A stretch of 64,000 nucleotides of DNA, from the NCBI GenBank assembly GCA_946186575.1, contig CAMHNO010000010.1, positions 1 through 64,000 on the forward strand. Direction: 5' to 3'. Positions 33,801-58,398 of the stretch are shown piece by piece. The notes beneath the pieces were generated by a model that was given only the letters and a program-made list of their open reading frames with translations, did not search any database and was not told where the DNA came from. Position numbers and translations under genes: made by a program. Positions within the stretch are counted from its first letter, which is position 1. Each line of letters opens with the position of its first letter. The DNA comes from an uncultured Prevotellaceae bacterium (lineage in GTDB: Bacteria > Bacteroidota > Bacteroidia > Bacteroidales > Muribaculaceae).

Positions 33801-34237
33801 TGAGCAACGAGGGCAAGAGTCTGCAGCTTGAGATGCCATTGGACCTGCAAGAAGGTCGTCACACCCTTGAGTTTAAGGTCTATGACGTGGCAGGCAACAT
33901 GACCTCTCAGAACATCTCATTCATCGTGGGCAACGACTCACAACTGACACTCACTGTTGACGAGGAGCCTGCCGTGGCCGAAGCCACTTTCAACGTAGTC
34001 ACTCCACTGAGCACTATTCCTCAAGTGACCATCAAGGTGATTGACAGTGTGGGCAATCTTGTGTGGCACACCACTACCAGCAATTTCCCCTACTCATGGA
34101 ACCTGAAGGACGACAATGGCCAGCGAGTTCCAGCCGGTGTCTACAAGTTCTATGGAACCTATCAAGGCAACACCACCTATGGCGGCACACCCATTGGCCA
34201 CATGATAGTGATTGAGCCCAACAAGACCAGCAACTAA
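30827..34237 (+). CDS. C25 family cysteine peptidase, PorU/gingipain-like paralogue 1
   Basis: A 1136-residue exported protein with a signal peptide (ends LSAHA). It has the same N-terminal layout as PorU (LLASGKWVKVAISDDGIYQIT) and an intact putative dyad: His642 in YVGHGG and Cys676 in ACCDVARYD. Later elements are LLGDPAMKVNYPKP and a C-terminal segment ending VWHTTTSNFPYSWNLKDD ... VPAGVYKFYG, like a T9SS-type domain. It is much closer to the next gene than to PorU, sharing long identical stretches such as KIFNEFS(G/S)GTPDAM. It may be a secreted protease or a PorU-like sortase for a cargo subset; which is not decidable here. Confidence 0.85.
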   Translation: MHKKFLFNILGLIAVAAATTLSAHAFSSSNYTTTSLLASGKWVKVAISDDGIYQITFDELAQMGFSNPQAVRIYGAGGHAINEELDGTQIDDLKPIPFKVYGNKLCFYGCGTVKYTLSTPTGMPHYTRQHNSYSTKGYYFLTENSGTAMIEPATSSGSSITAAMISRNSSLDYWHHERELISPAESGKDMLGEAMINSQVTVPYNIPDLISDSLAVLNICAGAKVTTASYLKGELNGTDANFTLSSSKIYAPANSFVSYNYASPYNTIKPEGGIPTSGNVKATISCLSGDVTNSWLDFIIITYYHKNKLTGTPDGQLRMGVNKISTQDRIVIEDATDETQLWDITNPANPTSCSLSTVEGVKGYAPGVNVNSMQFIAFDPSKQLKSVEAFEPVENQNIHGLPTPDMVIVTCAELMPQAERVAQMHRDNDNMIVHVLDQQKIFNEFSGGTPDAMGIRLMCKMFYDRNKNKFKNLLMFGAGNYDNRQILSKRDCTILVYEAEVSHDEEYSYVSDDFFGILDDNSGVSLASDYLRLGVGRIPCASLQEAESDVDKLLEYVNNPDYGSWRNDMILTADDYDNGLHAFQAEGINEIVVDELATGLMNNKVYISQYPLDPISGFALDARKELIGKLKEGQYFMTYVGHGGKNFLTKEVQLWTTSQSNTVEYPFLPILTTACCDVARYDSNERGLVEIMFHKPNGGAIAMVTSARSVYANDNDALNQAFVRSMFCYGTKGYMPTIGEAYMLCKNSFGKKTNYNKMSFMLLGDPAMKVNYPKPFFKITKINGQNVGTQAIASGAMQEVTVEAKVYNPDGETVNTSFNGDATLSIYDYKKKETSITQRVNRVDVTRDIYFPQNLLTRVNGRVENGIFTAKAVIPRYILSAGSNGSVKVYAHLDDSDEMVNGSFDLLKLNAYNESNSLTVHDNAAPVIEAMFLNDEQTFSTGSLVPAGSKLFIRANDDNSFNNQAAAMGNTMSLMLDGGKTTFPYVGNYACLSNEGKSLQLEMPLDLQEGRHTLEFKVYDVAGNMTSQNISFIVGNDSQLTLTVDEEPAVAEATFNVVTPLSTIPQVTIKVIDSVGNLVWHTTTSNFPYSWNLKDDNGQRVPAGVYKFYGTYQGNTTYGGTPIGHMIVIEPNKTSN

Positions 34238-34466: not shown

Positions 34467-37400
34467 ATGAACAAAAATCATATTCTCACCTGCCTCTGCC
34501 TCATCGCCGCAACGATGAGTGCCTTGACTGCAAGCGCTTTTTCGGCATCGAAATATGCCACAACGTCAAAACTCGCCTCTGGCAAATGGGTAAAAATCTC
34601 AATTCCAGAAGATGGAGTGTACCAGCTGACTTACAGTGAGCTTAAACAGATGGGATTCTCCAATCCACAGGACGTGAGAATATATGGTTATGGTGGCCAC
34701 CCAATCAGCGAACTGCTCGACGGCTCAGTCCCCGACGACTTGACTCAAATACCCACTAAGCGTTTTGACGACAAGATTTGCTTCTACGCATGCGGCCCAA
34801 CTATGTTCTCGATTGAGTCGCCCACCAGCAACCCACGCTTCACGCGCCAGCAGAACAGCTATTCCCAAGCAGGCTACTACTTCGTCACCAGCCAGGCGGG
34901 AACTTCGCCCAAAGAAGTGAGCACCCGAAACGGCGGAACATCGGGGCAGATAATCAGGACTTCAAGCCTTGACTACTGGCATCATGAGCAAGAGCTGATG
35001 TCGCCATCGCAATCGGGCAAAGAGATGCTGGGCGAGCTCATGCCCGGTAACAGCATCACCATGGACTACAACCTTCCTGGACTGTGTCCCGACTCGGTAA
35101 TGCTCATCACTGCCAGCGTTGCTGCCAAGACCAGTGTCAATAGCACCATAGGCGGCAAGCTCAACGGCAACAACCTGAACTTCAGCATTGGCAACAACCG
35201 CATCTATGCAAGCACGTCAATCTATGTGTTCTACAATATTGCCTCGCCCACCGCTATCTACAGCCAGACCTCTCCCATTCCCACATCGGGCAACCTAACG
35301 ATAGAAGTTAGCGACACCAGCACATGGACTCGCCTTAACTACTACACACTCTCCTACTATCACAACAACTCGATGAGCCACGCCACCGACAACCAGTTGC
35401 GCATGGGACTTAGCAACCTAAACAACAGCAACATTATCAAGGTGGATGATGCAACAAGCTCAACTCTGCTCTGGAACATCAGCAATCCTAACGACCCCGT
35501 CAACTGCCCACTTATCAGTTTCAACGGCTTCATCGGCTTCAATCCCACATTTAAAGCCGACTGGACACAGATGGTAGCCTTCGACCCCACCAAGCGACTA
35601 AAGTCGATTGCAGGATTTGAGCCTGTTGACAACCAAAACATCCATGGCTTGGCCAACCCCGACATGGTGATTGTCACTTGCGAGAAACTCATTCCCGAGG
35701 CCGAACGTGTGGCTCAGATGCATCGCGACAACGACAACATGACAGTGCACGTGCTCGACCAGCAGAAGATTTTCAACGAATTTTCGAGCGGAACCCCCGA
35801 TGCCATGGCCATCAGGCTCATGTGCAAGATGTTCTACGACCGCAACAAGAATAAGTTCAAGCACTTGCTCATGTTTGGAAGTGGCAGCTTCGATAATCGT
35901 CAAATTCTCTCAACTAACGAATGTAACATTCTCACCTATGAGTCGAACAATAGCAGCGACGAGAACAACAGCTACGTGAGCGACGACTTCTTTGGCATGC
36001 TCGACGACAACTCTGGCGCCAACGTCACTGCCGACTTGCTCACCATAGGCGTGGGAAGAATACCCTGTGCTTCGCTACAGGAAGCTCAAGGCGATGTAGA
36101 CAAACTGATAAACTATGTCAACAACCCCGACTATGGACCCTGGCGCAACAACATGATGCTTGTGGCCGACTACTACGAAGATGACCACAGCATGCATGCC
36201 TATCAGGCCGAAGGCATTGGCTCCATAATCAACGAAGAGCTGAATATTGGACTAATAAAAAACAAGGTTTTTGTCACTCAGTTCCCGCTTGACCCTGCCA
36301 CCGAGTTCGCTCTCGAAGGCCGACGCAGTCTCAACACCCAACTCAAGTCAGGACAATTCTTCATGACCTATGTGGGCCACGCCAATCCCACCACGCTCAC
36401 TAAGGAAGTGCAACTGTGGACCACCACCGAATCGAAAAACGCCACCTACCCCCACCTGCCCATCGTCACCACAGCTTGCTGCGACGTGGCACGCTACGAC
36501 GGCAGCGAGCGGGGGCTCATGGAGATAATGTTTCACAAGCCCGACGGTGGAGCCATTGCAATGGTAGCCACCACACGCGCGGCCTATGCCAACGGCAATG
36601 ATGCCCTGAACCAAGCCTTCGTGCGAGCATTGTTCGGCTACAACTCCACAGGGCGCATGCCCACTCTGGGCGAGGCTTACAAGAGCTGCAAGAACTCTTT
36701 TGGACAAATATCCAACTACAACAAGATGATGTTCTCCTTGCTGGGCGACCCTGCCATGAAGGTCAACTATCCCAAACCCTACTTCAAGGTGACAAAGGTC
36801 AATGGTCGCACTGCTGGCACATCGCCCATCAGCTCGGGTGCTCTGCAACGAGTCACAGTCGAGGCTAAGGTCTACACCCCCGACGGCAGCCAAGTTGACG
36901 TCAGCTTCAACGGCGATGCCACTCTTGCCATCTATGACATGCTCAAGAAGGAACAAACCTACAATGGCCGCAACATCTACTTCCCCCGCAACCTTCTCAC
37001 GCAGGTTGACGGCCGCGTTGTCAACGGAGTGTTCACCGGCGTTGCTGTGATTCCACGATTCATCCAGAGCTCCGGTAGCGACGGGCTCATATCGGTCTAT
37101 GCTCACCGCGATGGCAGCAACGAGATGGTCAATGGCTCGTTCGACCTGCTGCGCCTTAACTACTACAACGAGAACAGCTCACTCACCGTCCACGACAGCA
37201 ACCCACCCACCATCGATGCCATCTATTTCGACAACGAAGAGGCATTCGACATGTGCTCACAGGTAGGCACATCGGCAACTCTCCACATCCGAGCCACCGA
37301 CGACGTTTCGTTCAACAACCAAACTCTTGCCGTGGGCAACAGCATGGATCTCAAAATTGATGGTGGCAAGCACAACTTCCCCGACGTCAAGGCCTACTCC

Positions 37401-37838
37401 ACCATGAGCAACAATGGCAAGCAACTCCACGTAGCATTGCCCATGACTCTGGAGCCTGGCGACCACACGCTGCACTTCACCGTCTACGACGCTGCATGCA
37501 ACATGACTTCGCGGTCAATCAATTTCTCGGTGGGCGAGAGGCAACTGACGCTCACTGTGGAGCAGGAACCTGCAGTGGATGTTGCCACTTTCAACATCTG
37601 CACAAGCAGTGAGTTCCATCCCATGGTGAGCATCAAGGTGCTTGACCTCACAGGAAATCTCAAGTGGCAAACTGCCACCAGCAACTTCCCTCTCAACTGG
37701 GACCTCGTGGGCAACAATGGCCGCAAACTCGCACCCGGAATTTACACCTTCTACGGCAAGTACAGCGACGGCACCACCCACGGCGGCTCAGCAACCGGCA
37801 CTCTCGTGGTTGCCGGCGAGCACAACAGCGACAAGTAG
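34467..37838 (+). CDS. C25 family cysteine peptidase, PorU/gingipain-like paralogue 2
   Basis: A 1123-residue close relative of the preceding gene, with a signal peptide (ends LTASA). The catalytic cysteine is kept (Cys672 in ACCDVARYD) and so is the histidine (His638), but the usual GHGG is changed to GHAN, so activity is less certain. The C-terminus (LKWQTATSNFPLNWDL ... LAPGIYTFYGKY) parallels its neighbour. The gene ends with TAG at 37836-37838. In the same frame after two stops there is a separate, canonical T9SS sorting domain (see 37875-38060), so the original gene may have been longer. Tandem duplication with paralogue 1 is evident. Confidence 0.85.
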   Translation: MNKNHILTCLCLIAATMSALTASAFSASKYATTSKLASGKWVKISIPEDGVYQLTYSELKQMGFSNPQDVRIYGYGGHPISELLDGSVPDDLTQIPTKRFDDKICFYACGPTMFSIESPTSNPRFTRQQNSYSQAGYYFVTSQAGTSPKEVSTRNGGTSGQIIRTSSLDYWHHEQELMSPSQSGKEMLGELMPGNSITMDYNLPGLCPDSVMLITASVAAKTSVNSTIGGKLNGNNLNFSIGNNRIYASTSIYVFYNIASPTAIYSQTSPIPTSGNLTIEVSDTSTWTRLNYYTLSYYHNNSMSHATDNQLRMGLSNLNNSNIIKVDDATSSTLLWNISNPNDPVNCPLISFNGFIGFNPTFKADWTQMVAFDPTKRLKSIAGFEPVDNQNIHGLANPDMVIVTCEKLIPEAERVAQMHRDNDNMTVHVLDQQKIFNEFSSGTPDAMAIRLMCKMFYDRNKNKFKHLLMFGSGSFDNRQILSTNECNILTYESNNSSDENNSYVSDDFFGMLDDNSGANVTADLLTIGVGRIPCASLQEAQGDVDKLINYVNNPDYGPWRNNMMLVADYYEDDHSMHAYQAEGIGSIINEELNIGLIKNKVFVTQFPLDPATEFALEGRRSLNTQLKSGQFFMTYVGHANPTTLTKEVQLWTTTESKNATYPHLPIVTTACCDVARYDGSERGLMEIMFHKPDGGAIAMVATTRAAYANGNDALNQAFVRALFGYNSTGRMPTLGEAYKSCKNSFGQISNYNKMMFSLLGDPAMKVNYPKPYFKVTKVNGRTAGTSPISSGALQRVTVEAKVYTPDGSQVDVSFNGDATLAIYDMLKKEQTYNGRNIYFPRNLLTQVDGRVVNGVFTGVAVIPRFIQSSGSDGLISVYAHRDGSNEMVNGSFDLLRLNYYNENSSLTVHDSNPPTIDAIYFDNEEAFDMCSQVGTSATLHIRATDDVSFNNQTLAVGNSMDLKIDGGKHNFPDVKAYSTMSNNGKQLHVALPMTLEPGDHTLHFTVYDAACNMTSRSINFSVGERQLTLTVEQEPAVDVATFNICTSSEFHPMVSIKVLDLTGNLKWQTATSNFPLNWDLVGNNGRKLAPGIYTFYGKYSDGTTHGGSATGTLVVAGEHNSDK

Positions 37839-41077: not shown

Positions 41078-43093
41078 TTAGCGCACAATCACCTTTTTGC
41101 CTCCCACGATGTAGATGCCGTGTGGCAAACCGTTGGTAGCCTCACTGCGAGGCACCCCTGTGCGCAGTAGCTGTCCTTGAGTGTTATAGACATCGACGAG
41201 TATGCTACTCTGGTCCACCACAACATTATCGAGCGCTGAGCTTCCTAACAAGTTAATCTTCACATCGTTGCGCTTATACACGTTTTCATTCTTGTCGGCA
41301 AAGAGTATTTCGTCGAGAGTGATATAGTCGGTGTTGTTAATAGTGATGGGGCGTGTTGAGCTAATCGAGAGCGAGAGCAGCACGCCATTGTCGCCCTCGA
41401 TGTTCTCGCCTGTGGGCGAGAATCCTACAATTGTATAGTGCTGACCATTGTCGTTGCCTGAGTGAATCTCATGAGCGAGGCATCGCTGCGACAACGTGGC
41501 ATTAGTGATTGAGATGTGAGTTGGAGTGGTGATGCTAAACTGGAAAGCTGTGTAGTCGATTGCGTTATCGAGCAAGATGTCGAGGTTAACTGTCGTGGTA
41601 GTTTCTGCCGTGCCGAGCCCCTCCACTATATCGTCGAAGTAGGTGCGATAAGGCTTGTAGGCTGGCTGACTGCCGTTAATGATATTATAAATCGACACAA
41701 TATCGCCCACATTCACCCGCTCGTCGCCATTGACATCAGTGCGCGACATGTCCAGTCCCTGACTACTACCATCCACTATCAATCGTCGCTCGCCAACAAC
41801 GTCGGCATAATTTACAAAGCCATCATTGTTCACATCGCCACGCAGCTGCGCCTCACCTACCACAAAATCCATCCACTGCATGGCAGCCATGTAGTCGTTG
41901 ATGCTCTGCCCGTTGACGTTGAGACTCACCAGGCTCTGGTCCACACCCTGCCACACCTCATCGCCCAGTTCTGGAACAACGAGTGGCTCGCTTGTGATTT
42001 CGTTGAGGCCAGTCATTCCAGCCATTGCGTGCGACCCAATGTAATAAACCTTGTAAGGTACCGTTATCGACTCATGCTGCGACTGGTTGTAGAGTGCGTA
42101 ATCGCCAATGTTTCCTAAGTTGCGAGTCATGAATCCCACATCCACTTGGTCGCATCCTGCAAGCATGTAGTCAGGGAGGTAGGTCAGTGTCGTGGGCAAC
42201 TCAATGTTGGTGAGTGCCTTATTGTAGAAAAGTGTGCCTTCGTCAAGACTCTTGACATGTGCAGGAATATTTACATGGGTAATATGGGTTCGTGCCAGTG
42301 CCCAGGCCCCCAAATGCTTGAGCATAGGGGTGCGAGCGAAATCGATACTTTTGAGTCCCGTGTTGTAGAAGGCCCTGTCGCCCACCTCTTCGAGCTTTGA
42401 CTCATCAAGAAAAAACACCACCTTGAGCGCGGTGCATCCATCGAACGCTCCGTTACCTATCTTGGTCACATTCTTGCCAATATTCACGTTGGTGAGCTTT
42501 ACACAGTCGGCAAACGCCTCGTCGCCAATCACCAATGGATTTTTGGGGTAAAGATTAACTGCAGCAAGATTTGAACAATGAATAAAAGCTCTACTCCCCA
42601 GATAGGTAATGCGTCCTGGGAACTCCAAATGTGTGAGCGATGAGCAAGAGTTGAACGCATCGTCGCCAATTCTTGAAACAGAATAAGGGATTGATATTGA
42701 GGCCAGCGATGTGCATCCCGCCATTGCGCCGTAGTCGATAGCCACGAGGCCCTGGGGCAGCACTATGCTTTCGAGTCTTGTCATGCCAGTCATGGCACAA
42801 TAGGGCAAGGTGTTGGCCTCATGGTTATACACCCCTGCTATCATCTGGTCGTCGAGCGTGCTGTTATAAGCGCTGATGGTGACACCCGCGAGGTTTAGAG
42901 ATTTTAGATTCTCCAGATTATCGGCAATAAACTTGAAGTCGCGAGCGTCGATAGTGCCGTTAATTGTGAGATTAGTAATGCTGTAGTCGGTCACCACCAT
43001 TGCCAGTTCTCCGGCAGTGGTGGTGACAGTGACAGCATGCAGCTGCAATGCTGTTATTAAACAGAGAATTATAGAAAGTAGTTTGCTGTGCAT
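41078..43093 (-). CDS. BspA-like LRR surface protein with dockerin-like, cohesin-like and T9SS modules (second of pair)
   Basis: A 671-residue exported protein from the ATG at 43093 (MHSKLLSIILCLI, signal peptide to about residue 20). Residues about 35-400 are BspA-type LRR_5 repeats (IGDDAFNSCSSLTHLEFPG). Residues about 419-474 hold a diverged dockerin-like pair (GDVNNDGFVNYADV, TDVNGDERVNVGDIVSIYN). Residues about 497-616 form a beta-sandwich-like region (AFQFSITTPTHISI; IEGDNGVLLSLSIS) that resembles cohesin domains. Residues 632-671 are a T9SS sorting domain ending GLPHGIYIVGGKKVIVR. It is probably co-transcribed with the paralogue upstream. Confidence 0.85.
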   Translation of the reverse strand: MHSKLLSIILCLITALQLHAVTVTTTAGELAMVVTDYSITNLTINGTIDARDFKFIADNLENLKSLNLAGVTISAYNSTLDDQMIAGVYNHEANTLPYCAMTGMTRLESIVLPQGLVAIDYGAMAGCTSLASISIPYSVSRIGDDAFNSCSSLTHLEFPGRITYLGSRAFIHCSNLAAVNLYPKNPLVIGDEAFADCVKLTNVNIGKNVTKIGNGAFDGCTALKVVFFLDESKLEEVGDRAFYNTGLKSIDFARTPMLKHLGAWALARTHITHVNIPAHVKSLDEGTLFYNKALTNIELPTTLTYLPDYMLAGCDQVDVGFMTRNLGNIGDYALYNQSQHESITVPYKVYYIGSHAMAGMTGLNEITSEPLVVPELGDEVWQGVDQSLVSLNVNGQSINDYMAAMQWMDFVVGEAQLRGDVNNDGFVNYADVVGERRLIVDGSSQGLDMSRTDVNGDERVNVGDIVSIYNIINGSQPAYKPYRTYFDDIVEGLGTAETTTTVNLDILLDNAIDYTAFQFSITTPTHISITNATLSQRCLAHEIHSGNDNGQHYTIVGFSPTGENIEGDNGVLLSLSISSTRPITINNTDYITLDEILFADKNENVYKRNDVKINLLGSSALDNVVVDQSSILVDVYNTQGQLLRTGVPRSEATNGLPHGIYIVGGKKVIVR

Positions 43094-43123
43094 CTTAGAT
43101 ACCACACATTACTTCTATAGTGA

Positions 43124-45121
43124 TTATCTAACAATCACCTTCTTGCCTCCCACAATGTAGATACCCTGTGGCAGACCTTGGGTAGCCTCGCTCGGATCTA
43201 CGTTGCGACGAAGCAGTTGTCCGTTCATGTTGTAGACATCAACTGGGCCGCTTGCCTGGTTGTCGATGTTAATATCCTTCACACCAGTGGTAGTTCCCAC
43301 CTCAACTTCGAAGTTGCTGATGAAGTGAACAAGCTCGCTTGGCTCAACAGCAATGATATTGTTCACGCTAATCACCTCGTTGCCGCCGAAGCTGTCGTCG
43401 GCCTCAACCGTGATGGCCAGCAGTGTGCCATCGTTGCCACTGAGTGCGGTGGCACTGCTTAGCAGAATTCTCCACTTGCCAGGCTCAACCTCGTTATACC
43501 CCATCATCATTCCGGCGGCACGACTTGTAGCGGCTGCGCTTGTTATCTTCAGACCCTGTGGCATGTCGATGTCTAACTGCAATGCCGAGAAGGCTGCTGA
43601 GTTGAGCAACTCAACGTCGATAGTGCGAGTTTCGCCCTTCTCGATGATGAATCCTTGAGCACTCATCATGTCGCTGCTGCTGGTCACGCTCTTGTTGCGA
43701 CCCGAGATGTTCTTGCTACCCATCAGCAAGTTGTAAATCAGGGTTATGTCGGCAGCATTGATGCTTCCATCCTCATTCACATCGCTGGTCTCATAGAATG
43801 TCATGTCGTTGCTGAGCAGGTAATTGTAGAGGGCTGTGATGTCGGCCGATGTCACTGTGCCATCCTGGTTCACATCGCCAAACACGCCGCCTGGCTCTTG
43901 CACCAAGAAGTTTTGCCACTGAGCCGCCGCCATGTAGGCTTCGCCAGTGTTGCGTGGCACATGCAGTGGAATCACCTCCTGATTCACTCCCAGCCACACA
44001 TCATCGCCAAGCTCAGGCACCTGCTTGGCCTTGATGGTGACATCCTGCAAGCTGGTCATGCCTGCCATTGCCTGCGTGCCAATGTAGTTGACGGTGGCTG
44101 GCAAAATCATGGTTGTAGCTGGAGTGTTATATAGAGCATACTTGCCAATGTATTGAACGCTGTTTCCTGCCACATCTTCGTTGCTGGCAGCAGTGCCGGC
44201 AAGCAGAAAGTCGGCAATAGAGTCGGAATGTTCGTTGGGGATATAGGAAGTGAGTTCAGTGGCGTAGTAGAAAGCGCCCTTGCCCACATGGTTGACACTT
44301 GCGGGAATTACAGCACTCACTTGCTTTGACTGCGCAAAGGCCCAGTCGGCAATCTCAATCAGGGCATTGGCCTGCGAGAAGTTGAAGTTTACGATGCCCG
44401 ACCCAGCAAAGGCTGCCTTGCCAATGCTTGCAATGTTGTTTTGCTGCGTGAAGGTGATGCTCGTCAGGCGTGGAGTTCCGGCAAGAGCGCCGTCGCCAAT
44501 TCCTGTCACATTAGGACCCAAGGTGAGCACCTGCAGGAACATGCAGTCGTAGAATGCATCCTTGGGGAGCACCATTGCCTGAGTTGGTATAATGTTGGCA
44601 CTAAGCAAAGCCTGGCAGTGCGAGAAAGCGCCTATTCCTAACGACTTGAGAGTTGATGGAATGGTCACGCGACCAAGTGCCGAGCTCGAGAATGCAAAGG
44701 CACCTATCGAGTCGAGCCCCTCGGGCAGATTGATGCTCGTGAGTTGCTTGCATCCAGCAAATGCCGCTTTGCCTATGGCCTTAGTGTTGCCAGGCAAGTT
44801 GATGCTTGAAATCTTCTTTCCAAAGAAAGCCATTGCAGGCACACAATTGCCAGCGAAGCTAACTTCGTTGTTAAACAATGGGTTACTGGCATTGCTATAA
44901 GCCACAATTTCCACCCCCGTCAAGTCGACTGTGGTGAGAGCATCAAGCTCATCGGCAATAAACTTGAAGTCGCGAGCGTCCATTTGCCCGGTGATGGTGA
45001 GCGTTGTTATACCATGATCGGCAACATGGCTTGCCAGGCTACCTGGAGTGCATTCCACTTCAAGAGCCCACCCCATCAGGGTTGAGGCCATGAGTGCAAG
45101 TGTGAGCAAGTATTTCTTCAT
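43124..45121 (-). CDS. BspA-like LRR surface protein with dockerin-like, cohesin-like and T9SS modules (first of pair)
   Basis: A 665-residue exported protein from the ATG at 45121 (MKKYLLTLALMASTLMG signal). Domain order: BspA-type LRR_5 repeats (about 40-400; IGKAAFAGCKQLTSINLPEG); dockerin-like pair at 415-468 (GDVNQDGTVTSADITALYN, SDVNEDGSINAADITLIYN); cohesin-like beta region at 488-608 (FSALQLDIDMPQGLKI; LSGNDGTLLAITVEAD); T9SS sorting domain at 627-665 (VDVYNMNGQLLRR ... GLPQGIYIVGGKKVIVR). BspA-type repeats often mediate adhesion. An in-frame ATG at 45151 would add 10 residues but weakens the signal peptide. It is a tandem paralogue of the next gene, 30 bp away. Confidence 0.87.
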   Translation of the reverse strand: MKKYLLTLALMASTLMGWALEVECTPGSLASHVADHGITTLTITGQMDARDFKFIADELDALTTVDLTGVEIVAYSNASNPLFNNEVSFAGNCVPAMAFFGKKISSINLPGNTKAIGKAAFAGCKQLTSINLPEGLDSIGAFAFSSSALGRVTIPSTLKSLGIGAFSHCQALLSANIIPTQAMVLPKDAFYDCMFLQVLTLGPNVTGIGDGALAGTPRLTSITFTQQNNIASIGKAAFAGSGIVNFNFSQANALIEIADWAFAQSKQVSAVIPASVNHVGKGAFYYATELTSYIPNEHSDSIADFLLAGTAASNEDVAGNSVQYIGKYALYNTPATTMILPATVNYIGTQAMAGMTSLQDVTIKAKQVPELGDDVWLGVNQEVIPLHVPRNTGEAYMAAAQWQNFLVQEPGGVFGDVNQDGTVTSADITALYNYLLSNDMTFYETSDVNEDGSINAADITLIYNLLMGSKNISGRNKSVTSSSDMMSAQGFIIEKGETRTIDVELLNSAAFSALQLDIDMPQGLKITSAAATSRAAGMMMGYNEVEPGKWRILLSSATALSGNDGTLLAITVEADDSFGGNEVISVNNIIAVEPSELVHFISNFEVEVGTTTGVKDINIDNQASGPVDVYNMNGQLLRRNVDPSEATQGLPQGIYIVGGKKVIVR

Positions 45122-46777: not shown

Positions 46778-48493
46778 TTAGAAGAGCTGAGTGGCACGGG
46801 GGTTGATGCACAATCCCAACACACGCTCGCGGTTGCCATTGTAGTCCTCAACCTTCTTGGTGACGGGGTCGAAGTATTTGAGTCCTGTAACGTAGGTCTT
46901 CTCGGTGGTAGCAGCCCGGAATCCGAAGTACACAAAGTGAGTGACTGCATCCACAGCAAACTGGGTGGTATAGACGCCCTCGTCGGCGGTAGTGTTCTCG
47001 GGATTGGCCTCCATGTTTACAAAGGTTGTGTAATTGTCGTAATCAAGACCTTGCTTGTCGCCAGGAATGGGATAGCAAGTGAAGCCAGGGCCAGGAGTAC
47101 CACCCTTGCACATCCACACGTAGAGGTTGCCTAAGTCTTCGTCGAGAGTGAAGGCCCTTGGCTGAGTGGCAGGAAGCACTATGGGATAAGGGATTGGGCC
47201 TGTCTTGGTGGCCGATGCCTCGCCAATGTCGGCGGTCGTGAAGCGGTAGATGCCGTTGCCCGAGTAGTTCTTGCCCCACCAGAACACTCCGTTGCGGTCG
47301 ATGTAGAGCCCAGTGTGAATGGCTCCGTAGGCAATGCCGTTGCCGTAGTAGTTGAGCATGTTGTTGACGCAGAAGTATCCTGCCGTGCTCGAGTAGACGG
47401 TGTTCTCAACTTCGCCACGAGCAGTAAGCAGCATGCGCCTGATACCAGTGTTGCGATCGGTGTAATAGAGATAGGTGCCGTCGCTGAAGCCCTGGAAAGG
47501 ATCGTTAAAAGCCTGGCGCCCAACGTTTGATACCATAGTACTCACGTCGGCTCCATCGGCAGTCATCACACTAATCTTGCCGTCGCCCAGCACACCGTTC
47601 TCATCGTTGACATAGTAGTACTGCTTGCCACAATCCAGGATGTAGACGTAGTCTCGGCCCTCGACCGAGGCAAAGACGAGGTTGGTGGGCATGTTGCCCG
47701 AATTCACACCCATGTCGAAGGGCATGTTCTTAGTGCCCGGTGGCAACTGGCTCATGTCCACGAGCTTGTAGGCCTTGATGTTGCCTCCCATCACGGCATA
47801 GTAGAGCGTGGCACAAGGAATAGATGAGCCCACCTGCACGTTCACATAGCTGTCCTCGAGGCGGCGATTCTCGCCATTGACATCAAACCAAGTTTGCAGT
47901 TCAATCTTCTGTGAGCCAATGTTTTTAAATTTCAGCTTCCCAGGATTATCAACAGTTCCATCGCTGTGGCTGTAGCCGATGAACTCAGTAATTTCGGTTC
48001 CGTCCTCGAGCATTGTGCCCTCGGGAAATTTCCACACATATTTGCACTCCAAGTCCTCGGGGTTGGGAAGTGCAATGTCGAGCAGCACAGTCACGTCGTT
48101 GATAACCACAGTCTCAGCACTCTGTTCCACAACACTCAGCAAGGGTGCAATGTCATAGATGAGCAGCGGATAGGTGCACTTGCCCACCCCCTCAACGGTG
48201 AGCGTGACATTGTAGAGTCCAGCCTGGGCATACTTGTGAGTCGGGTTCTGGTCGGTAGAGGTGGTTCCGTCGCCAAAGTCCCATGTCACAGCTCCGCCCT
48301 TGCTGCTGTTGTTGATGAACTTGATTGTCGAAACAACATAGAAATCGAGAGTATACTCATCTCCGTCAACACTGTAGGTAAAGTCCACGTCCTTGCTGCC
48401 AGGAAAGTTGCCATAGACAGGCTCTTTCTCCACGCAAGAAGCCATGGTCGCCACCATCAATGCCATTAATGCTATTATCTTTATTGTTTTCAT
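46778..48493 (-). CDS. PKD-domain surface lipoprotein with beta-propeller-like region
   Basis: A 571-residue lipoprotein: lipobox TMASC (Cys20), then a PKD domain at about 45-115 (VTWDFGDGTTSTDQNPTHKYAQAG). From about 230 to the end there are repeated strands with Tyr/Trp-rich turns (DGTYLYYTDRNTGIRRM; LGNLYVWMCKGG) that suggest a beta-propeller. It is the fourth and last gene of the SusC/SusD operon, 15 bp after the preceding lipoprotein gene. Such accessory lipoproteins usually help capture the operon's substrate at the surface. The glycan or peptide bound is unknown. Confidence 0.82.
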   Translation of the reverse strand: MKTIKIIALMALMVATMASCVEKEPVYGNFPGSKDVDFTYSVDGDEYTLDFYVVSTIKFINNSSKGGAVTWDFGDGTTSTDQNPTHKYAQAGLYNVTLTVEGVGKCTYPLLIYDIAPLLSVVEQSAETVVINDVTVLLDIALPNPEDLECKYVWKFPEGTMLEDGTEITEFIGYSHSDGTVDNPGKLKFKNIGSQKIELQTWFDVNGENRRLEDSYVNVQVGSSIPCATLYYAVMGGNIKAYKLVDMSQLPPGTKNMPFDMGVNSGNMPTNLVFASVEGRDYVYILDCGKQYYYVNDENGVLGDGKISVMTADGADVSTMVSNVGRQAFNDPFQGFSDGTYLYYTDRNTGIRRMLLTARGEVENTVYSSTAGYFCVNNMLNYYGNGIAYGAIHTGLYIDRNGVFWWGKNYSGNGIYRFTTADIGEASATKTGPIPYPIVLPATQPRAFTLDEDLGNLYVWMCKGGTPGPGFTCYPIPGDKQGLDYDNYTTFVNMEANPENTTADEGVYTTQFAVDAVTHFVYFGFRAATTEKTYVTGLKYFDPVTKKVEDYNGNRERVLGLCINPRATQLF

Positions 48494-48508
48494 AACTTCG
48501 GCGATGTT

Positions 48509-49555
48509 TTAGTTTAGTTCGATATATTTGGTCTCGGTATCCTTTCCCATCTTGCCGCTCTCGTCAAAGACTCGGAATTGCGGGTAAAGGATGTACTGGC
48601 GAGTGAAGTTCACCGAGTAGGAGTTCTCGCTACTGTTAAATATCCAGTCCTCGAAAGGTATCAACGTGAGCAACTCTTTCCATGCCGGCATGTACTGCGG
48701 TCTCACCGAGGTGATGCGGCCACCGGTGTCGTCGCTATAGCGGCTATAGACCCACTTGCTTGACTGATACACCTCATAGACATTGACTCCTGCTGGAGCG
48801 TCGCTGGGGCTCGCTATCTCATGTTCGGTTTTAACACCAGCCTCATCAACCGTGATGTAGTAGTAGTGGTCGACAACATCGCCATTCACAAACCACAAGT
48901 CGCTCTTTTGGCCGCTCTCGGTAGCAGTGGGCAGATCCAGGCCATACTTGGTGTTGAGTGCCTCGAACTGCTGAGCAGTGAAGTCATAGTTGATATAGAT
49001 GTTGCGCAGATCGTTATAGTAGGTGCTGTCGCGGGTAAGGTACTCTATCACATTATCCTTAAACTCCTGCTGAAACGATGCGGGATAATACATGTTGAAC
49101 CTCTCATGGTCAAATTCCTTGGGCTCCACCCAGGCCACCGGCGCCAGTGTTGCCGACACTGCAAAAGAATCGACGAGCACATATTCATGACCATCCCACT
49201 CGGCCTTGCTGTGATCGTAAGTGCCAAGCAAGCTGTAATTGCGCACGGTGTCGGTTGATGTCACCGTCTTAGTGTAGGAGAGCGAAGTGGTGAGGCGGCA
49301 TGTAGCCTTGGCCTCGGTCTTGCGTGTGAACAGTCCCCACACCTCGCAGTGGTCAATAGTGTGGTCCTCGCTGGTGTAGTACTTGGCCCTGAACTTAATA
49401 TATCCACCGGCCTTGCCCACATTGCTGAGTTCCCACGACACGGTGGGCACCACTTGCCCCATTTCCATGTTGTCGGCAAAGGGGTCATGCACTTGACACG
49501 ATGTTGCCATGACTGCCATCGCAGCGACCAAGCCTAATATTTTGAAAATCTTCAT
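48509..49555 (-). CDS. SusCD-associated lipoprotein, function unknown
   Basis: A 348-residue lipoprotein with lipobox MATSC (Cys20). I do not recognise a named domain. The N-terminal part (VSWELSNVGKAGGYIKFRAKYYTSED) looks like an Ig-like beta domain, and the rest mixes beta strands and helical segments. It is third in the operon after susC and susD and before the PKD lipoprotein, the place where SusE/SusF-like surface binding proteins are found. A role in substrate binding is inferred from position. Confidence 0.75.
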   Translation of the reverse strand: MKIFKILGLVAAMAVMATSCQVHDPFADNMEMGQVVPTVSWELSNVGKAGGYIKFRAKYYTSEDHTIDHCEVWGLFTRKTEAKATCRLTTSLSYTKTVTSTDTVRNYSLLGTYDHSKAEWDGHEYVLVDSFAVSATLAPVAWVEPKEFDHERFNMYYPASFQQEFKDNVIEYLTRDSTYYNDLRNIYINYDFTAQQFEALNTKYGLDLPTATESGQKSDLWFVNGDVVDHYYYITVDEAGVKTEHEIASPSDAPAGVNVYEVYQSSKWVYSRYSDDTGGRITSVRPQYMPAWKELLTLIPFEDWIFNSSENSYSVNFTRQYILYPQFRVFDESGKMGKDTETKYIELN

Positions 49556-49608
49556 AATTCTTGCATTATTTTGTGTTAGCTACAATTTTCATTCTTTACT
49601 AATCTCAC

Positions 49609-51531
49609 TTAATTTCCTGATAGCGAGGTAACCACTCCATAGTCGTGAGCCCATATCATGGGCTCTTGCAGCCACTTGTAGTTCTTGTAAGCGCCCAGGC
49701 GCTGAAGCTCAGAGCGATTGTATTTCTCCTCGGTCTCGGGGTCGTAGTTCAAGCGCTGAATCCAGGTGTTCTCCTTCTGGTTCTCGGTCAAGCCGTCGAT
49801 CCAGTAGGCGGCATATAGGTTGTAAGGCCTGCGAAGCTCGGGGTAGACAATCTCGTTAGCATCGCCAATGCCGTAATTGTTGCGCTTGTTGCTATAGTGG
49901 TAGCGTCGCATGTCGGTCCACATTTCGGGTTGGTAAACCATGGCAACGTACTTCTGTATCATCAAGTCGCTCAGGGTATACTCTGCGGGGTTGAAGAACC
50001 AGTGCTTGTTGCCGCGGTCGGTGACCTTGGGCACACGCAGGGTAGCGCGACCGCTGGAAGAATAAGTAAAGTAGTCCTCATTGTTGAGGAAGGCGTTGAG
50101 CTGTCCCTCCCAGTACTGTGCCTGAGTGTAGCCTGGCGTGCCACTCACGGTGCACTGCCCTGGATACTTGTTGTCGGTGTTCTCGTTGTAGTTGGGATTG
50201 GGGTACTTCTTAAGGAAGAAGTCGAGATGACGCTCAATGTTGTGCTCAGTGGCCTCCTTGGCAAGTGCGCAAGCCTCGGCTTTGTTGCCAAGCCAATAGG
50301 TGGCCTCGGCCTTGATGAAGTAGAGCTCCTCCATGGTGAATATTGGGTTATAGGCCGTGGGGTCTCCGCAATATGCACCCATATATAGGTTTGGATAGTT
50401 AGCAATCTTATAGCTGGTGCTCATGCCAATGTTGTTCTCTAAATAGCGCATCTTTATCACACTGGCGGTGGTGTTGCTCAGCGACTGAGGGCCAGTGCGC
50501 GGTATCATCAGCATCACACAGCGTGGATCGTTGGCATAGCCTTGGAAGCTTGAAGCGGTTCCGCCATTGTAGGTGCCGCAGTAGCGTTCATTGTCGGGGG
50601 CGCTGATGCCCAGCACGTCGACCATGAAGTACTTGCTTGGGATTGCATTGTCGAGCAGATTAGAGCGCGACTCCCAGCTGTTGATCACAGGCTTCGAGAG
50701 GCTCCACACGCAGTTTTGCGCGCCTGTGCCTCCGTCAAAGTTGTAGCGAGGCTCATTGCCAAACCAGCTGCCATATAGCAGGTCGCCCTTGCGCCACTGA
50801 TTGATGGCAGCGTCGGCGGCAGCAATAATCTTCTGGCACATGGCCGCGCTGCGGTCCACATTGGGGATGTTGCGCAGCAGCAGGCGCGCCTTGATGGCAT
50901 AGACGAGACCTTTCCATTTCTCGAGGTCGCCGGCATAGACGCGGTCTTGAGCTGCATCAATCTCCAGATTGTGCTCATTCTGGGCATATTCAGGATTCTC
51001 ATAAAGCGAAATGAGCTCGTCGGCTTCCTGGAACATCCACTCGTAGATGCTCGCCTGCGTGTCGTAGGCTGGCGAGTTGCTCAGGTAGGCCTGCGACCTG
51101 GGCATGTCGCCAAAGGCATCGGTGGTTAGCTGAGTCGACATCAGCCTGATGGTGCGGGCTATGAGTTCATAGTTGGGAGAGCCTATCTCCTGTGAATACT
51201 GTATCAGGTTCTTGGCATTGACACCAATGTCGTAGAAGTGGCGCCGCCATTGCGGGTGGCGGTTCATGGTCAGCATCTCCCACTCGCACTTATAGGAATA
51301 GGCACCCACCGAGCTTTTGCCTCCGGTAGTGAGGAACTGCGAGAAGTAGTTGTAATACTCGGCGTGGTCATAGTTGATTTGCTGAGCATAGAAAACCACA
51401 GTGGGCAATGCCACCTGCACGTTAATGGAGTGAGCCTTGTCGGGGTTCACATTATCGTCAAGAATGTCCTCGCAACCGGCCATCACCAGGCAAGCCATCG
51501 AGAGCATTGCTATTGTCTTTATTTTATTCAT
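49609..51531 (-). CDS. susD: SusD/RagB-like nutrient-binding outer-membrane lipoprotein
   Basis: A SusD-superfamily lipoprotein of 640 residues from the ATG at 51531 (MNKIKTIAMLSMACLVMAGC); another ATG 9 bp upstream is possible. The lipobox cysteine is Cys20. It looks like the SusD-like_2 subgroup: DILDDNVNPDKAHS near the start, a helical TPR-like core (STQLTTDAFGDMPRSQAY) and C-terminal WTDMRRYHYS. It forms a lid over the SusC channel. It follows susC by about 24 bp. The substrate is not deducible from sequence. Confidence 0.92.
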   Translation of the reverse strand: MNKIKTIAMLSMACLVMAGCEDILDDNVNPDKAHSINVQVALPTVVFYAQQINYDHAEYYNYFSQFLTTGGKSSVGAYSYKCEWEMLTMNRHPQWRRHFYDIGVNAKNLIQYSQEIGSPNYELIARTIRLMSTQLTTDAFGDMPRSQAYLSNSPAYDTQASIYEWMFQEADELISLYENPEYAQNEHNLEIDAAQDRVYAGDLEKWKGLVYAIKARLLLRNIPNVDRSAAMCQKIIAAADAAINQWRKGDLLYGSWFGNEPRYNFDGGTGAQNCVWSLSKPVINSWESRSNLLDNAIPSKYFMVDVLGISAPDNERYCGTYNGGTASSFQGYANDPRCVMLMIPRTGPQSLSNTTASVIKMRYLENNIGMSTSYKIANYPNLYMGAYCGDPTAYNPIFTMEELYFIKAEATYWLGNKAEACALAKEATEHNIERHLDFFLKKYPNPNYNENTDNKYPGQCTVSGTPGYTQAQYWEGQLNAFLNNEDYFTYSSSGRATLRVPKVTDRGNKHWFFNPAEYTLSDLMIQKYVAMVYQPEMWTDMRRYHYSNKRNNYGIGDANEIVYPELRRPYNLYAAYWIDGLTENQKENTWIQRLNYDPETEEKYNRSELQRLGAYKNYKWLQEPMIWAHDYGVVTSLSGN

Positions 51532-51555
51532 GATTTCCATAGTTGTGAGTCATTA

Positions 51556-54500
51556 TTAGAACGATACTTTCAATGTGAAGTTAAAACTGCGGGTCGACGG
51601 CACATTGTAGTTGTCGATGCCCATGCCACCAGTGCCACCGCTCACGGCTGCCAGAATAGCAGGGTCATTGCCAGTGTACTTGGTGAGCAAGAACAGGTTG
51701 CGGCCCGTGCAGTTCAAGCTCAAGTGCTTGATGGGGCATCCTGGCTTGAGCAGGCTCGTGAAGTCGTAGCCCAATGTCACATAACTCAAGCGGATGTAGG
51801 ATCCGTCCTCGATGAAATTAGACGACACCGAGGTGTAATATGTGTTGATGAAGTTCTGGTCAAGAATCACAGGAGTGGTGTTGGGCGAGTAGGTACCGTC
51901 GCCGTTGGCCACCACACCCTTAAATATTATCTCGCGGTTGCGATACTTGTCGTAGAGGTGATTCATGCCGTTGGTGATAAGGCTGCGGCCCGTTACGTTG
52001 GCCACGTCGCCGCCCTTGCGAGTGTCGAACAAGAACGATGCCGTGAGATTTTTCCAGCGGAAGTTTGAACCAAGTCCCAGCAGGAAGTCGGGCTCACGAT
52101 TGCCAATGTAGATTCCCTTAGCAGGGTCGATAAGTGGATAACCGTCGGCATTGCATATCACGTTACCGTCAGGGTCACGCATGTAGTCTTTACCCGACAG
52201 ACCTGTCGATGAGCCATCGAGGCGGGCCACCGGGAAGATGTCGCCATATTGCACACCCTGTATCTCAACCACGTCCTCGGGCAGGTGGGTTACCTTGCCG
52301 CGATTGAACGAGAAGTTGAGCAGTGCTGTCCAGTCGAAGTCGTGACTGCGGATTATGTCTTGAGCCAGCGACACCTCCACACCGTGGTTCACAATGGTTC
52401 CCTCGTTGCGAGTTTGAAGGATGGTTCCCGAAGCTGGCGACACACGCACTGTCACAATCTGATTGTCGACAGTAGTCGAGTAGTAAGCGATGTCAAGACG
52501 GGTGCGACTGTTGAAGAATCGCAGGTCGGCACCTATCTCCCAGGAACTCGTCATCTCGGGATCGAGAACGATAGCGCGCGAGGTGGTGGGGTCGATGCCA
52601 TAGCCACCGTCGGGGAAGGTGGTCCATTCTTTAAATGTATCGGTGAACACATAGGGCGGGCAATCCTTTCCCACCTTGGCCCAGTTGCCACGCAACTTAC
52701 CATAGCTGAACCAGCTGTTGGTGAGGTTGAAGAGCTCGCTGAATATTACACCAGCAGTCACCGATGGGTAGAAGTAGCTACGGGTCTTGTTCTGCTTAAA
52801 GCGCGATGAGCCGTCGTGACGCCATGTGCCTGAAATCTGGGCAATGCCCTTGTAGTCGAAGCGGACTTCACCAAAGTAGCCATATTTGTTCGACTCGGAG
52901 TGATAGAGGGTCAACCCTCGTGTGATGTAGGTGTCTTCGTTTAGGTTCTGCCAGCTGTAGAAGCCGTCGCCATTGGGGTCGATGAGCTGGAACTCATAGC
53001 CGCCAAAGCTGCCTTCCAGGCCCTTATTCTTGCGATATTCCATGCCATAGAATACGTTGAACGTGAAATCCTCGGCAAAGGTGTGGGTGTAGTTGGCAAA
53101 GAACTGTGCGGTGAGCTGCTCACTGCGTGATGGCTGGAACGAGTATTCACCAAAGCGCGATAAATTCTCGTTCAAGATTTTCTCCACATCAGGGTCGTGG
53201 CGATTGATGAAATCGGAGTCGTAGAAGCGAGGCACAGTGTAGGCATCATACATGGTGTAACCCTTGTCGTAGCCTATCTTGCCAGTGAACACTAAGTTCT
53301 TGATGGGCTCGTAGGCGATTTGGCCGTTAAGCATGAAGCGGTTGCTCTCGGTTGTGCTCTTGTCGAGGTAGCGACCATAGTAGGGGCTCACTGTGGCGCC
53401 AATGCGCTCGCTGTCGAGCAGCTCATCCCAGTGGTCGTAGCGGCTCGCCCAGTTCACGGTGCCATTGGCTGTGACATAGTCGGCCATGTTGAAGTTTCGG
53501 CCCCAGTTATAGATTGTAGACATGGAATTTCCAAATCCTCGCGACTTGTTGTTCACGAAGTTGAGCGACATTTGCAGTGTTACCTTGTCGCTGGGCTTGT
53601 ACATCGCCTTCATGAAAGCAGTGATCTGGTTTTTATAATCTTTAGGCACCACGCCCCGGTTCAAGGTGTAAGACACCGAAGCATAGGAGTTGAACTTCTC
53701 GGTGCCGCCGCTCACGCTCACGCTGTACTTCTGCAGCAATCCGGTACCTAAGAATCCGCCCAAGTTGTCATAGACCGTCTCACCGGGCTGGATGTAGGCA
53801 CCCCAACCGCCGCCACCGCTGTTCTCGCGGTAAAACCCCTTGGTGCCGGGAGCAAATTTGCTCTGCAGCTTGGGCACGCGCATGCAGTTGCTAATCTCCA
53901 CTGTGGCGCTGGCGTCAACCTTGATTGTGCCGTCGCGGCTTCCGCTCTTGGTGGTGATGAGGATTACGCCATTGGCACCCTCCTGGCCATACAAGGCACT
54001 TGCTGCAGCGCCCTTGAGCACGCTCATGTTCTCGATGTCGTCGGGGTTGATGTCGGCTAGGGTTGAACCGTGGCCACGAATTGCCACACCGTCAACCACC
54101 ATTAGTGGCTCGTTGTTCTGGCCATTGTGGATGGAGCTGATGGCGCGAACGATGACCTGGGTCGACGAGTTAGGCGATCCACCACCGGTAGCCACTTGCA
54201 AGCCGGCAACCTTGCCCTGTAGCGAATTGGCAAAGTTCGATGATCCGCCAGCTGTCACCTCGCTGGCGCTAAGACTTTGAACAGCAAAGTTCAGTTTCTT
54301 CTTTTCCTGTGTTTGACCATAAGCGGTCACCACAACTTCCTGAAGCAATTGGGCATCGTCGTCGAGAACTACATTGTAAACGTTTTGTCCGCTCACAATC
54401 TTGATTGTCATCGGATTAGCGCCCACATAGGTAATCTCGAGGACTTCGCCGTCATTCACCTCAATAGAGTACCTTCCGTCAATGTCGGTGGCCGTGCCGC

Positions 54501-54639
54501 GATTAGTCCCCTTCACCTGAACCGATGCGCCTATCACGGTCTCGCCATCGCTCTTCTGGGTGACTATTCCCGTCACGATGCGGGCATAACCCGCCATTGC
54601 AATGACCGAAAATAGCAGTAGTAGTAGCTGTTTTCTCAT
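51556..54639 (-). CDS. susC: SusC/RagA-like TonB-dependent outer-membrane transporter
   Basis: A 1027-residue TonB-dependent transporter. The signal peptide (MRKQLLLLLFSVIAMAGYA) is followed by a carboxypeptidase-D-regulatory-like domain (about 20-105; GASVQVKGTNRGTATDIDGRY). A plug domain follows (about 115-240; LQEVVVTAYG, LMVVDGVAIRG, SALYGQEGANGVILITTKSG), then a 22-strand barrel to the C-terminal Phe (FNFTLKVSF). It imports oligomers bound by SusD. It is the first gene of a four-gene minus-strand operon. No extracytoplasmic sigma/anti-sigma pair is adjacent. Confidence 0.95.
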   Translation of the reverse strand: MRKQLLLLLFSVIAMAGYARIVTGIVTQKSDGETVIGASVQVKGTNRGTATDIDGRYSIEVNDGEVLEITYVGANPMTIKIVSGQNVYNVVLDDDAQLLQEVVVTAYGQTQEKKKLNFAVQSLSASEVTAGGSSNFANSLQGKVAGLQVATGGGSPNSSTQVIVRAISSIHNGQNNEPLMVVDGVAIRGHGSTLADINPDDIENMSVLKGAAASALYGQEGANGVILITTKSGSRDGTIKVDASATVEISNCMRVPKLQSKFAPGTKGFYRENSGGGGWGAYIQPGETVYDNLGGFLGTGLLQKYSVSVSGGTEKFNSYASVSYTLNRGVVPKDYKNQITAFMKAMYKPSDKVTLQMSLNFVNNKSRGFGNSMSTIYNWGRNFNMADYVTANGTVNWASRYDHWDELLDSERIGATVSPYYGRYLDKSTTESNRFMLNGQIAYEPIKNLVFTGKIGYDKGYTMYDAYTVPRFYDSDFINRHDPDVEKILNENLSRFGEYSFQPSRSEQLTAQFFANYTHTFAEDFTFNVFYGMEYRKNKGLEGSFGGYEFQLIDPNGDGFYSWQNLNEDTYITRGLTLYHSESNKYGYFGEVRFDYKGIAQISGTWRHDGSSRFKQNKTRSYFYPSVTAGVIFSELFNLTNSWFSYGKLRGNWAKVGKDCPPYVFTDTFKEWTTFPDGGYGIDPTTSRAIVLDPEMTSSWEIGADLRFFNSRTRLDIAYYSTTVDNQIVTVRVSPASGTILQTRNEGTIVNHGVEVSLAQDIIRSHDFDWTALLNFSFNRGKVTHLPEDVVEIQGVQYGDIFPVARLDGSSTGLSGKDYMRDPDGNVICNADGYPLIDPAKGIYIGNREPDFLLGLGSNFRWKNLTASFLFDTRKGGDVANVTGRSLITNGMNHLYDKYRNREIIFKGVVANGDGTYSPNTTPVILDQNFINTYYTSVSSNFIEDGSYIRLSYVTLGYDFTSLLKPGCPIKHLSLNCTGRNLFLLTKYTGNDPAILAAVSGGTGGMGIDNYNVPSTRSFNFTLKVSF

Positions 54640-54754
54640 AATTACATGGTGTTGATTTATTTTTAGTTTTTTATATTTTAAATTTTATAGTGCCTCATCG
54701 CATTGCGTGTCAGTTACAAAATGGTACTAAATCAAGCGATATGGTTTCATTTTA

Positions 54755-54762
54755 CAAACTTA
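54755..54762 (-). promoter_or_regulatory. -7 box for the susCD operon
   Basis: TAAGTTTG on the minus strand, about 115 bp upstream of the susC start. No -33 TTTG is at the usual distance. The remaining 54.64-54.92 kb region is AT-rich with no visible gene. Confidence 0.55.
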
Positions 54763-54917
54763 ATCATATTTTTTGAAAACACATTAATAAAAAATAAGAA
54801 AAATGACATTTTTTTATTTTTTTAGCATTGTCTACTATTTTTTGCCATCATTAACATTGATGTTTGTTACCAGCACATCTCACTACGCAGCCACAGGCCA
54901 AACATATAATTACAAAA

Positions 54918-54967
54918 ACAAGGATGCGCACAGCCACAGCTTGGCGCATCCCTTGTCTTCTTTTTTT
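54918..54967. terminator. hairpin after the GHL10 gene
   Basis: ACAAGGATGCGC (54918-54929) pairs with GCGCATCCCTTGT (54944-54956) with one bulge; T-runs occur on both sides. Confidence 0.75.
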
Positions 54968-54973
54968 CAAGCG

Positions 54974-58360: not shown

Positions 58361-58398
58361 TTTTATTATCATTAATAATATTTTTAGAGTTTACAACG

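Follow-up and report, generated by a model that had tools for sequence, protein, structure and literature searches.

Candidate anchoring proteins of a cellulosome-like cohesin-dockerin assembly in an uncultured Muribaculaceae-type bacterium

Two adjacent genes in a 64,000-nucleotide stretch of DNA from an uncultured Prevotellaceae bacterium that the GTDB taxonomy places in Muribaculaceae (assembly GCA_946186575.1, contig CAMHNO010000010.1, positions 1 to 64,000; hereafter the window) encode exported proteins that combine a dockerin, a cohesin-like domain and a tail resembling the sorting domain of the type IX secretion system (T9SS). What could such proteins do at the surface of a Gram-negative cell? 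An earlier note, made from the letters of the window alone, had read them as T9SS-anchored scaffold proteins that would hold dockerin-bearing partners at the surface. Extending the analysis to the 2.7-Mb draft genome and to related genomes, we propose, with a probability of roughly 0.8, that this Muribaculaceae-type lineage, which has relatives among rumen strains, builds a cohesin-dockerin assembly resembling a cellulosome, and that the two proteins anchor it to the outer membrane or act as its adaptors.

Architecture of the tandem pair and identity of its cohesins

The two are minus-strand genes, with ATG starts read from the frames of the open reading frames (ORFs): anchor/adaptor protein A (P0002) spans 43124-45121 and anchor/adaptor protein B (P0001) spans 41078-43093. 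Since 30 bases separate the P0002 stop from the P0001 ATG, the two plausibly share one operon. The domain order is the same in both, with a signal peptide followed by BspA-type leucine-rich repeats (LRRs; Pfam LRR_5, E-values of 2.4e-51 and 9e-46 in the pair), a dockerin, a cohesin and a T9SS-like tail, and the layout described in the earlier note is thus confirmed, by Pfam for the LRRs and dockerins and by fold for the cohesins. The dockerin of protein A (43724-43879, minus strand) reaches 51.2 bits with Pfam Dockerin_1 (cut-off 22.9) and 54.2 bits in the PF00404 scan of the genome, that of protein B (41678-41839, minus strand) 28.8 bits in both, and E-values among the dockerins of the window are as low as 8.2e-15. 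The pair was found in all seven regions inspected in relatives, which had been chosen for closely spaced matches.

The cohesin domains, the identity of which the earlier note had flagged as inference, were delimited by our own search at residues 489-609 of P0002 (43295-43657, minus strand) and 484-615 of P0001 (41249-41644, minus strand), in agreement within 13 residues with the ranges first suggested (488-608 and 497-616). An AlphaFold model of the P0002 domain (predicted local distance difference test, pLDDT, 95.3; predicted template-modelling score, pTM, 0.88) was compared with the PDB using Foldseek, and all 50 listed matches were cohesin or cohesin-dockerin entries, the best being 2xdh (E 1.9e-8, TM 0.85). 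For P0001, a model of the dockerin-cohesin segment (pLDDT 84.4, pTM 0.83) gave 48 cohesin entries among the 50 listed; ranks 36 and 39 were taken by an adhesin CLIPPER domain and a pilin, respectively. In these counts, entries that do not carry the word in their title, such as 2o4e, 3kcp and 4fl4, were taken by us to be cohesins. With 50/50 and 48/50 listed matches being cohesin entries, another β-sandwich fold, for example that of a carbohydrate-binding module (CBM), was ruled out.

At the level of sequence profiles, too, the domain family is related to cohesins. Both domains matched the repeats of a 921-aa protein encoded elsewhere in the genome (phmmer whole-protein E-values of 7.5e-24 for P0001 and 1e-45 for P0002, in a small ORF database), and a profile was built from the alignment of nine such domains of the source genome. 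Searched against 177,635 PDB sequences, this profile returned four scaffoldin cohesins as its top matches (E 0.0041 for 5n5p, then 0.2, 0.28 and 0.54). In a genome of another Bacteroidales family (G299), a T9SS-tailed protein carries cohesins that Pfam does recognize (58.8 bits), and hhalign aligned the nine-domain profile to these with a probability of 99.5% (E 2e-22), compared with 0.1-1.4% for four controls. Searches of the PDB with individual cohesins by phmmer gave matches at chance level, the top two for P0002 being NagJ entries of Clostridium perfringens (E 0.51 and 0.52); we take the structure 2jh2 to be the cohesin-like module of that protein. The identification of the β-rich domains of P0001 and P0002 as cohesins is thus supported by the modelled folds of both and by the profile alignment of their family.

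A scaffoldin, a dockerin pool and their distribution

The nine-domain profile, run on the source genome, recovered its own nine cohesins in four ORFs, namely P0001, P0002, a 575-aa protein and the 921-aa protein, and no further cohesin at E ≤ 1. The 921-aa protein is a scaffoldin (L061:4661-7423, minus strand) in which six cohesins stand in tandem, a dockerin forms the C-terminus and Pfam recognized no CBM at E ≤ 0.1. P0001 and P0002, designated scaffold proteins in the earlier note, have one cohesin each and are better named anchoring or adaptor proteins, the multi-cohesin scaffoldin being encoded elsewhere in the genome. The 575-aa protein, with an N-terminal region, a dockerin, a cohesin and a tail, is a third candidate anchor, and the scaffoldin gene lies directly downstream of its gene. 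With the scaffoldin as query, a gene for a dockerin-cohesin-tail protein of 574-581 aa was found directly upstream of the scaffoldin gene in 9/9 loci (assigned to Muribaculaceae in four cases, Prevotellaceae in two and Bacteroidales in three; for four of them the source named is red deer, water buffalo omasum or goat reticulum); the number of scaffoldin cohesins was six in eight of these loci and four in one. Genomes of the same genus (L097, L100, L101, L107, L111, L113) also encode proteins of 213-249 aa with one cohesin and one dockerin, adjoining cohesin-dockerin-cohesin ORFs; small proteins of this composition resemble the ScaC adaptor of Ruminococcus flavefaciens.

The PF00404 scan of the genome gave 81 matches and a custom dockerin model 79 ORFs, the dockerin being within ten residues of the C-terminus in 59 of these, N-terminal in 11 and internal in nine. 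Like type I dockerins (PF00404), the domains show two loop-helix repeats with calcium ligands and scores over the Pfam cut-off. In 79 domains above 40 bits, from 78 ORFs, the calcium-ligand columns are retained in 78-79 domains for the first repeat and 76-78 for the second. The two repeats are nearly identical to each other, as is the case in type I dockerins that can bind in two modes. The residues T15, Y18, T46 and Y49, which we take, from known dockerin structures, to be those involved in recognition, are all retained in 70/79 domains, with seven lacking one or two of them; three or four are missing only from the dockerins of the 575-aa anchor and P0001, whereas those of P0002 and the scaffoldin are of the bulk type. 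The divergent P0001-type dockerin, which has AER (SER once) in its first helix, is kept in seven orthologues. Contamination was ruled out as the source of this pool, as the matches are spread across many contigs and the 40 listed genomes of the same genus are alike. One 43-kb contig (C20; L043-L045) holds ten dockerin matches, and in one ORF there (L044:6463-9945) the dockerin is followed by a stretch of low complexity, possibly the result of a frameshift.

Families fused to the dockerins were identified by a Pfam scan at E ≤ 1e-5 of 75 ORFs, which left aside one half dockerin and three short fragments among the 79, and all counts are minima: LRR_5 in at least eight ORFs, Peptidase_C10 in seven, CotH in six, CBM26 in five, FGE-sulfatase in four, Peptidase_S8 and Peptidase_M6 in three each, Cthe_2159 in two, and an amidase and a nuclease in one each. 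Glycoside hydrolases are present as alpha-amylases (at least three), GHL10 (at least two) and GH53 (at least one); cellulase families such as GH5, GH9 and GH48 are not among the families listed for these ORFs. The earlier note had expected glycan-active or glycan-binding partners; the cargo is mixed rather than mainly glycan-active, with peptidases, CotH, LRR and sulfatase-modifying-factor-like proteins beside the amylases, which suggests roles in starch and protein breakdown and surface interactions. By a crude signal-peptide rule, 72 of the 79 ORFs are type I-like, five are truncated and two have a possible lipobox; with so few of the latter, the idea that the dockerin proteins are surface lipoproteins was ruled out.

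The cohesin profile was then run over 297 genomes of the family, where match counts per genome are lower bounds (up to 14 cohesins and 21 dockerins were scored, and up to ten cohesins at the level of the order). Matches were obtained in 104 genomes, comprising 40 of the same genus, the source genome included, and 64 of the 257 others. All 40 listed genomes of the genus have cohesins, and all reach 20 or 21 of the 21 dockerins scored; among the match-free genomes listed, none belongs to the genus. Elsewhere in the family, three genomes that were checked (G003, G005, G022) have no dockerin, and G013 and the cohesin-positive G007 have one each. At the level of the order, 25 of 393 genomes were cohesin-positive. 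Of these, 23 lie outside the family, and every one of the 23 has a dockerin, 16 having at least two and nine at least five, with a maximum of 52; in the control set, made up of the first 16 cohesin-negative genomes listed, a single dockerin is present in five genomes and none has two or more (Fisher p 7e-6 for two or more). Proteins with five to at least ten cohesins occur in other Bacteroidales families (L138, L142 (G299), L139 (G343), L140 (G564), L141 (G473) and L144 (G370)); those of G343, G370, G473 and G564 end at contig or stretch edges, with the tail region outside the sequence. In G299, which has 38 dockerins (G343 has 52), proteins with five, seven and eight cohesins and InlB-type repeats bear TIGR04183 tails of 30-42 bits, so that there the scaffoldin itself is tailed.

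T9SS tails, PorU sortases and the proposed assembly

The presumed route to the surface rests on the C-terminal tails of the anchors (protein A, 43127-43249; protein B, 41081-41200; both minus strand) and on the secretion machinery of the genome. At E ≤ 0.01 the T9SS sorting-domain model TIGR04183 (cut-off 23 bits) detects ten tails genome-wide, six of them above the cut-off; one is on PorU copy 1 itself, and of the nine others four are on dockerin proteins, three of these being the cohesin anchors. The 575-aa anchor scores 22.5 bits. A model built from the anchor tails gives 91-95 bits for the three anchors and at most 29 bits for the rest of the genome; as the three were in the model, its informative part is the gap below them. 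The machinery is represented by SprA (2730 bits), GldM (520 bits) and three copies of PorU, the T9SS C-terminal signal peptidase or sortase, of which one per genome is usual. All three are encoded on the plus strand of the window: copy 1 (25918-29400, 932 bits) and the PorU-like sortases copy 2 (30827-34237, 734 bits) and copy 3 (34467-37838, 728 bits), each with His and Cys aligned at the expected catalytic pair. Their distance from the anchor pair is 3 to 15 kb, three unrelated genes intervening, and a PorU homologue is also present in three of the seven anchor-pair regions of relatives (two copies in G280, one seen in each of G060 and G135).

Our best reading of these data is a T9SS-anchored, two-tier assembly that would serve starch, protein and adhesion rather than cellulose. 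The anchors would reach the periplasm through Sec and then the surface through the T9SS, where, judging from the tail class and the machinery, a PorU-type sortase would cut off the tail and fix the anchor to the envelope. The cohesins of the three anchors may then bind dockerins, that at the C-terminus of the scaffoldin included, and the scaffoldin cohesins could in turn load up to six proteins encoded by the other dockerin ORFs (about 75), among them amylases, GH53 and CBM26 proteins, C10, S8 and M6 peptidases, CotH and LRR proteins and others. The data show the cohesin fold, dockerins with retained calcium ligands, the layout of the scaffoldin, conserved gene pairs, T9SS components and co-occurrence throughout the listed genus genomes; binding, the choice of partners and attachment to the surface are inferred.

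Several observations weigh against this proposal. The Pfam cohesin model PF00963 gives no match to P0001 or P0002 at E ≤ 1 and is absent from a whole-protein hmmscan of the scaffoldin at E ≤ 0.1; it picks up one of the nine cohesins of the genome, at 23.2 bits, or 24.3 bits with its neighbours (cut-off 24.1). The matches of the nine-domain profile in the PDB are weak, the first alone being below 0.01. In two separate searches, the TIGR04183 score was 22.3 or 26.0 bits for P0002, straddling the cut-off, and 12.4 or 17.7 bits for P0001, below it, so that of the T9SS domain assigned to both proteins by the earlier note there stands a tail that is visible in seven orthologous pairs, with weak support from the family model. 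The scaffoldin and nearly all dockerin proteins have no such tail, which leaves their surface display unexplained. Outside the genus, a single family genome (G001, 85% complete) reaches the dockerin level of the genus, all others having nine at most, and its 31 dockerins are accompanied by no cohesin detectable with this profile, owing either to missing contigs or to a different cohesin type. Finally, as many cohesin proteins carry a dockerin of their own, counts of one or two dockerins per genome are weak evidence of co-occurrence.

An alternative that shares most of this scheme is that the assembly is real yet released, in soluble form or on vesicles, the tail being a secretion signal without fixation to the cell. 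T9SS cargo can be either anchored or released, according to a review (PMC10202324), and the weak TIGR04183 match of the P0001 tail is compatible with such a fate. Dedicated processing, by contrast, would fit the three PorU copies with their His and Cys residues, the closeness of PorU genes to the anchor pair in this genome and in three of the seven regions, and a tail subclass that the three anchors alone match strongly, although attachment is not thereby proven. We regard release as unlikely. A further idea, which addresses the missing tails and which we consider distinctly speculative, is that the dockerin doubles as an export ticket, dockerin proteins and the tail-less scaffoldin binding the cohesin of tailed anchors in the periplasm and crossing with them via SprA; if true, one T9SS signal would serve dozens of cargoes, and the extra PorU copies near the anchors would be dedicated to that route.

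It could also be argued that there is no intermolecular complex and that the cohesin and dockerin folds are structural or ligand-binding modules inside surface proteins, a role proposed for scattered cohesins and dockerins elsewhere. The top fold matches of P0002 do include the non-cellulosomal cohesins 2xdh of Archaeoglobus fulgidus and 2jh2 of C. perfringens, and many genomes beyond the genus have few cohesins and one or two dockerins. A protein with six tandem cohesins and a terminal dockerin, the near-uniform recognition residues of 79 dockerin domains and the joint presence of both modules in 40/40 listed genus genomes, by contrast, are requirements of an assembly and not of a structural module, and we consider this explanation very unlikely. 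Equally improbable is a surface lattice in which the cohesins bind the dockerins of scaffoldin and anchors only and the enzyme dockerins have other partners, as might be suggested by the dockerins that all these proteins carry and by their divergence in P0001 and the 575-aa anchor. The recognition residues in the dockerins of P0002 and the scaffoldin are of the same bulk type as those of the enzymes, and the genome search gave no further cohesins to serve the bulk.

Neighbouring genes, known systems and significance

Besides the anchor pair, the window encodes three exported dockerin proteins. The first (5684-7180, plus strand, 55.2 bits) combines an N-terminal dockerin (5756-5914) with a Cthe_2159 carbohydrate-binding domain; the second (54974-58372, minus strand, 50 bits) is GHL10 glycosidase-like with a C-terminal dockerin (54986-55141); the third (62758-64000, minus strand, 34.3 bits), with a C-terminal dockerin at 62764-62925, extends beyond the window, the whole ORF in the genome being 577 aa long. 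None has a TIGR04183 match at E ≤ 1, and the view that they are dockerin proteins without a T9SS domain is upheld. A SusC/SusD-like pair (49609-54639) adjoins the GHL10 protein and forms with it and a PKD protein (46778-58372) a polysaccharide utilisation locus with a dockerin-carrying enzyme. A 1669-aa protein (15135-20144) appears to be a starch-binding surface protein, as it combines LRRs with two stretches of CBM26 and a T9SS tail that scores at the cut-off; it has no dockerin match. A Mur ligase domain is fused to an alanine racemase at 8872-11355.

The proposed system is reminiscent of the R. flavefaciens cellulosome and the Ruminococcus bromii amylosome, in which scaffoldins with terminal dockerins are combined with single-cohesin adaptors and anchors and a large dockerin pool. 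The best PDB match of the cohesin profile is an R. flavefaciens cohesin, and CBM26 and amylases are found among the dockerin proteins here as in the amylosome. Both Ruminococcus species are Gram-positive with wall-attached complexes, in contrast to the Gram-negative envelope, the T9SS-like tail and the absence of cellulases among the families listed for the dockerin proteins in the present case. A putative tail of the same class and the presence of SprA, PorU and GldM/PorM recall the PorU-anchored type A cargo of Porphyromonas gingivalis, unlike which the cargo here is a cohesin adaptor and three PorU copies stand in one locus. It is established for P. gingivalis that PorU cleaves the tail and attaches the cargo to lipopolysaccharide (PMC10202324).

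The closest known system is that of Ca. Stygibacter (Cloacimonadota), inferred in 2021 from metagenome-assembled genomes (MAGs), with one scaffoldin of 3,755 aa with CBM2/CBM3 and a few named dockerin enzymes (PMC8542988). Its tandem cohesins, C-terminal surface-attachment domain and dockerin enzymes for starch, chitin and protein resemble the present system, so that the idea of a C-terminal domain fixing a cohesin scaffold to the surface of a Gram-negative cell is not new; the differences are the phylum, the tail-less scaffoldin with separate tailed anchors, the 79 dockerin ORFs, the lack of a scaffoldin CBM and the genus-wide occurrence. Within Bacteroidetes, a 2018 study reports cohesins in camel rumen bins 129 and 136, the latter with five dockerins and one cohesin gene and named with other bins in which two to four cohesins occur in tandem (PMC6071333), so that a multi-cohesin protein in the phylum is already on record. 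More recently, Akresi et al. (2026, PMC12997984) found both modules in 78 Bacteroidetes MAGs, a co-presence that surprised the authors and that they considered to need investigation. These MAGs and bins share with our genome the joint presence of the modules; the passages seen of the two studies describe no anchor, tail or two-tier system. In other reports, one genome lacked cohesins and dockerins, which was deemed consistent with other Bacteroidetes genomes (2018, PMC5831590), no cellulosomes were found in the capybara gut (2022, PMC8810776), and a search of 305,693 prokaryotic RefSeq genomes excluded metagenome-based ones (Minor et al. 2024, PMC11557425). In the portions of the open-licence literature available to us, we found no description of an anchored two-tier cohesin-dockerin system in Bacteroidota.

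Comparable cohesin-dockerin assemblies have so far been described nearly exclusively in Gram-positive bacteria, and since the Pfam cohesin model finds one of nine domains here, such systems are possibly under-counted. The gap flagged in 2026 now gains concrete candidate parts, namely three anchors and a scaffoldin, a pool of dockerin proteins, and a predicted route of anchoring in a Gram-negative envelope. A new question is how dozens of Sec-exported, tail-less dockerin proteins would pass the outer membrane of a Gram-negative cell, and the system yields specific predicted cohesin-dockerin pairs.

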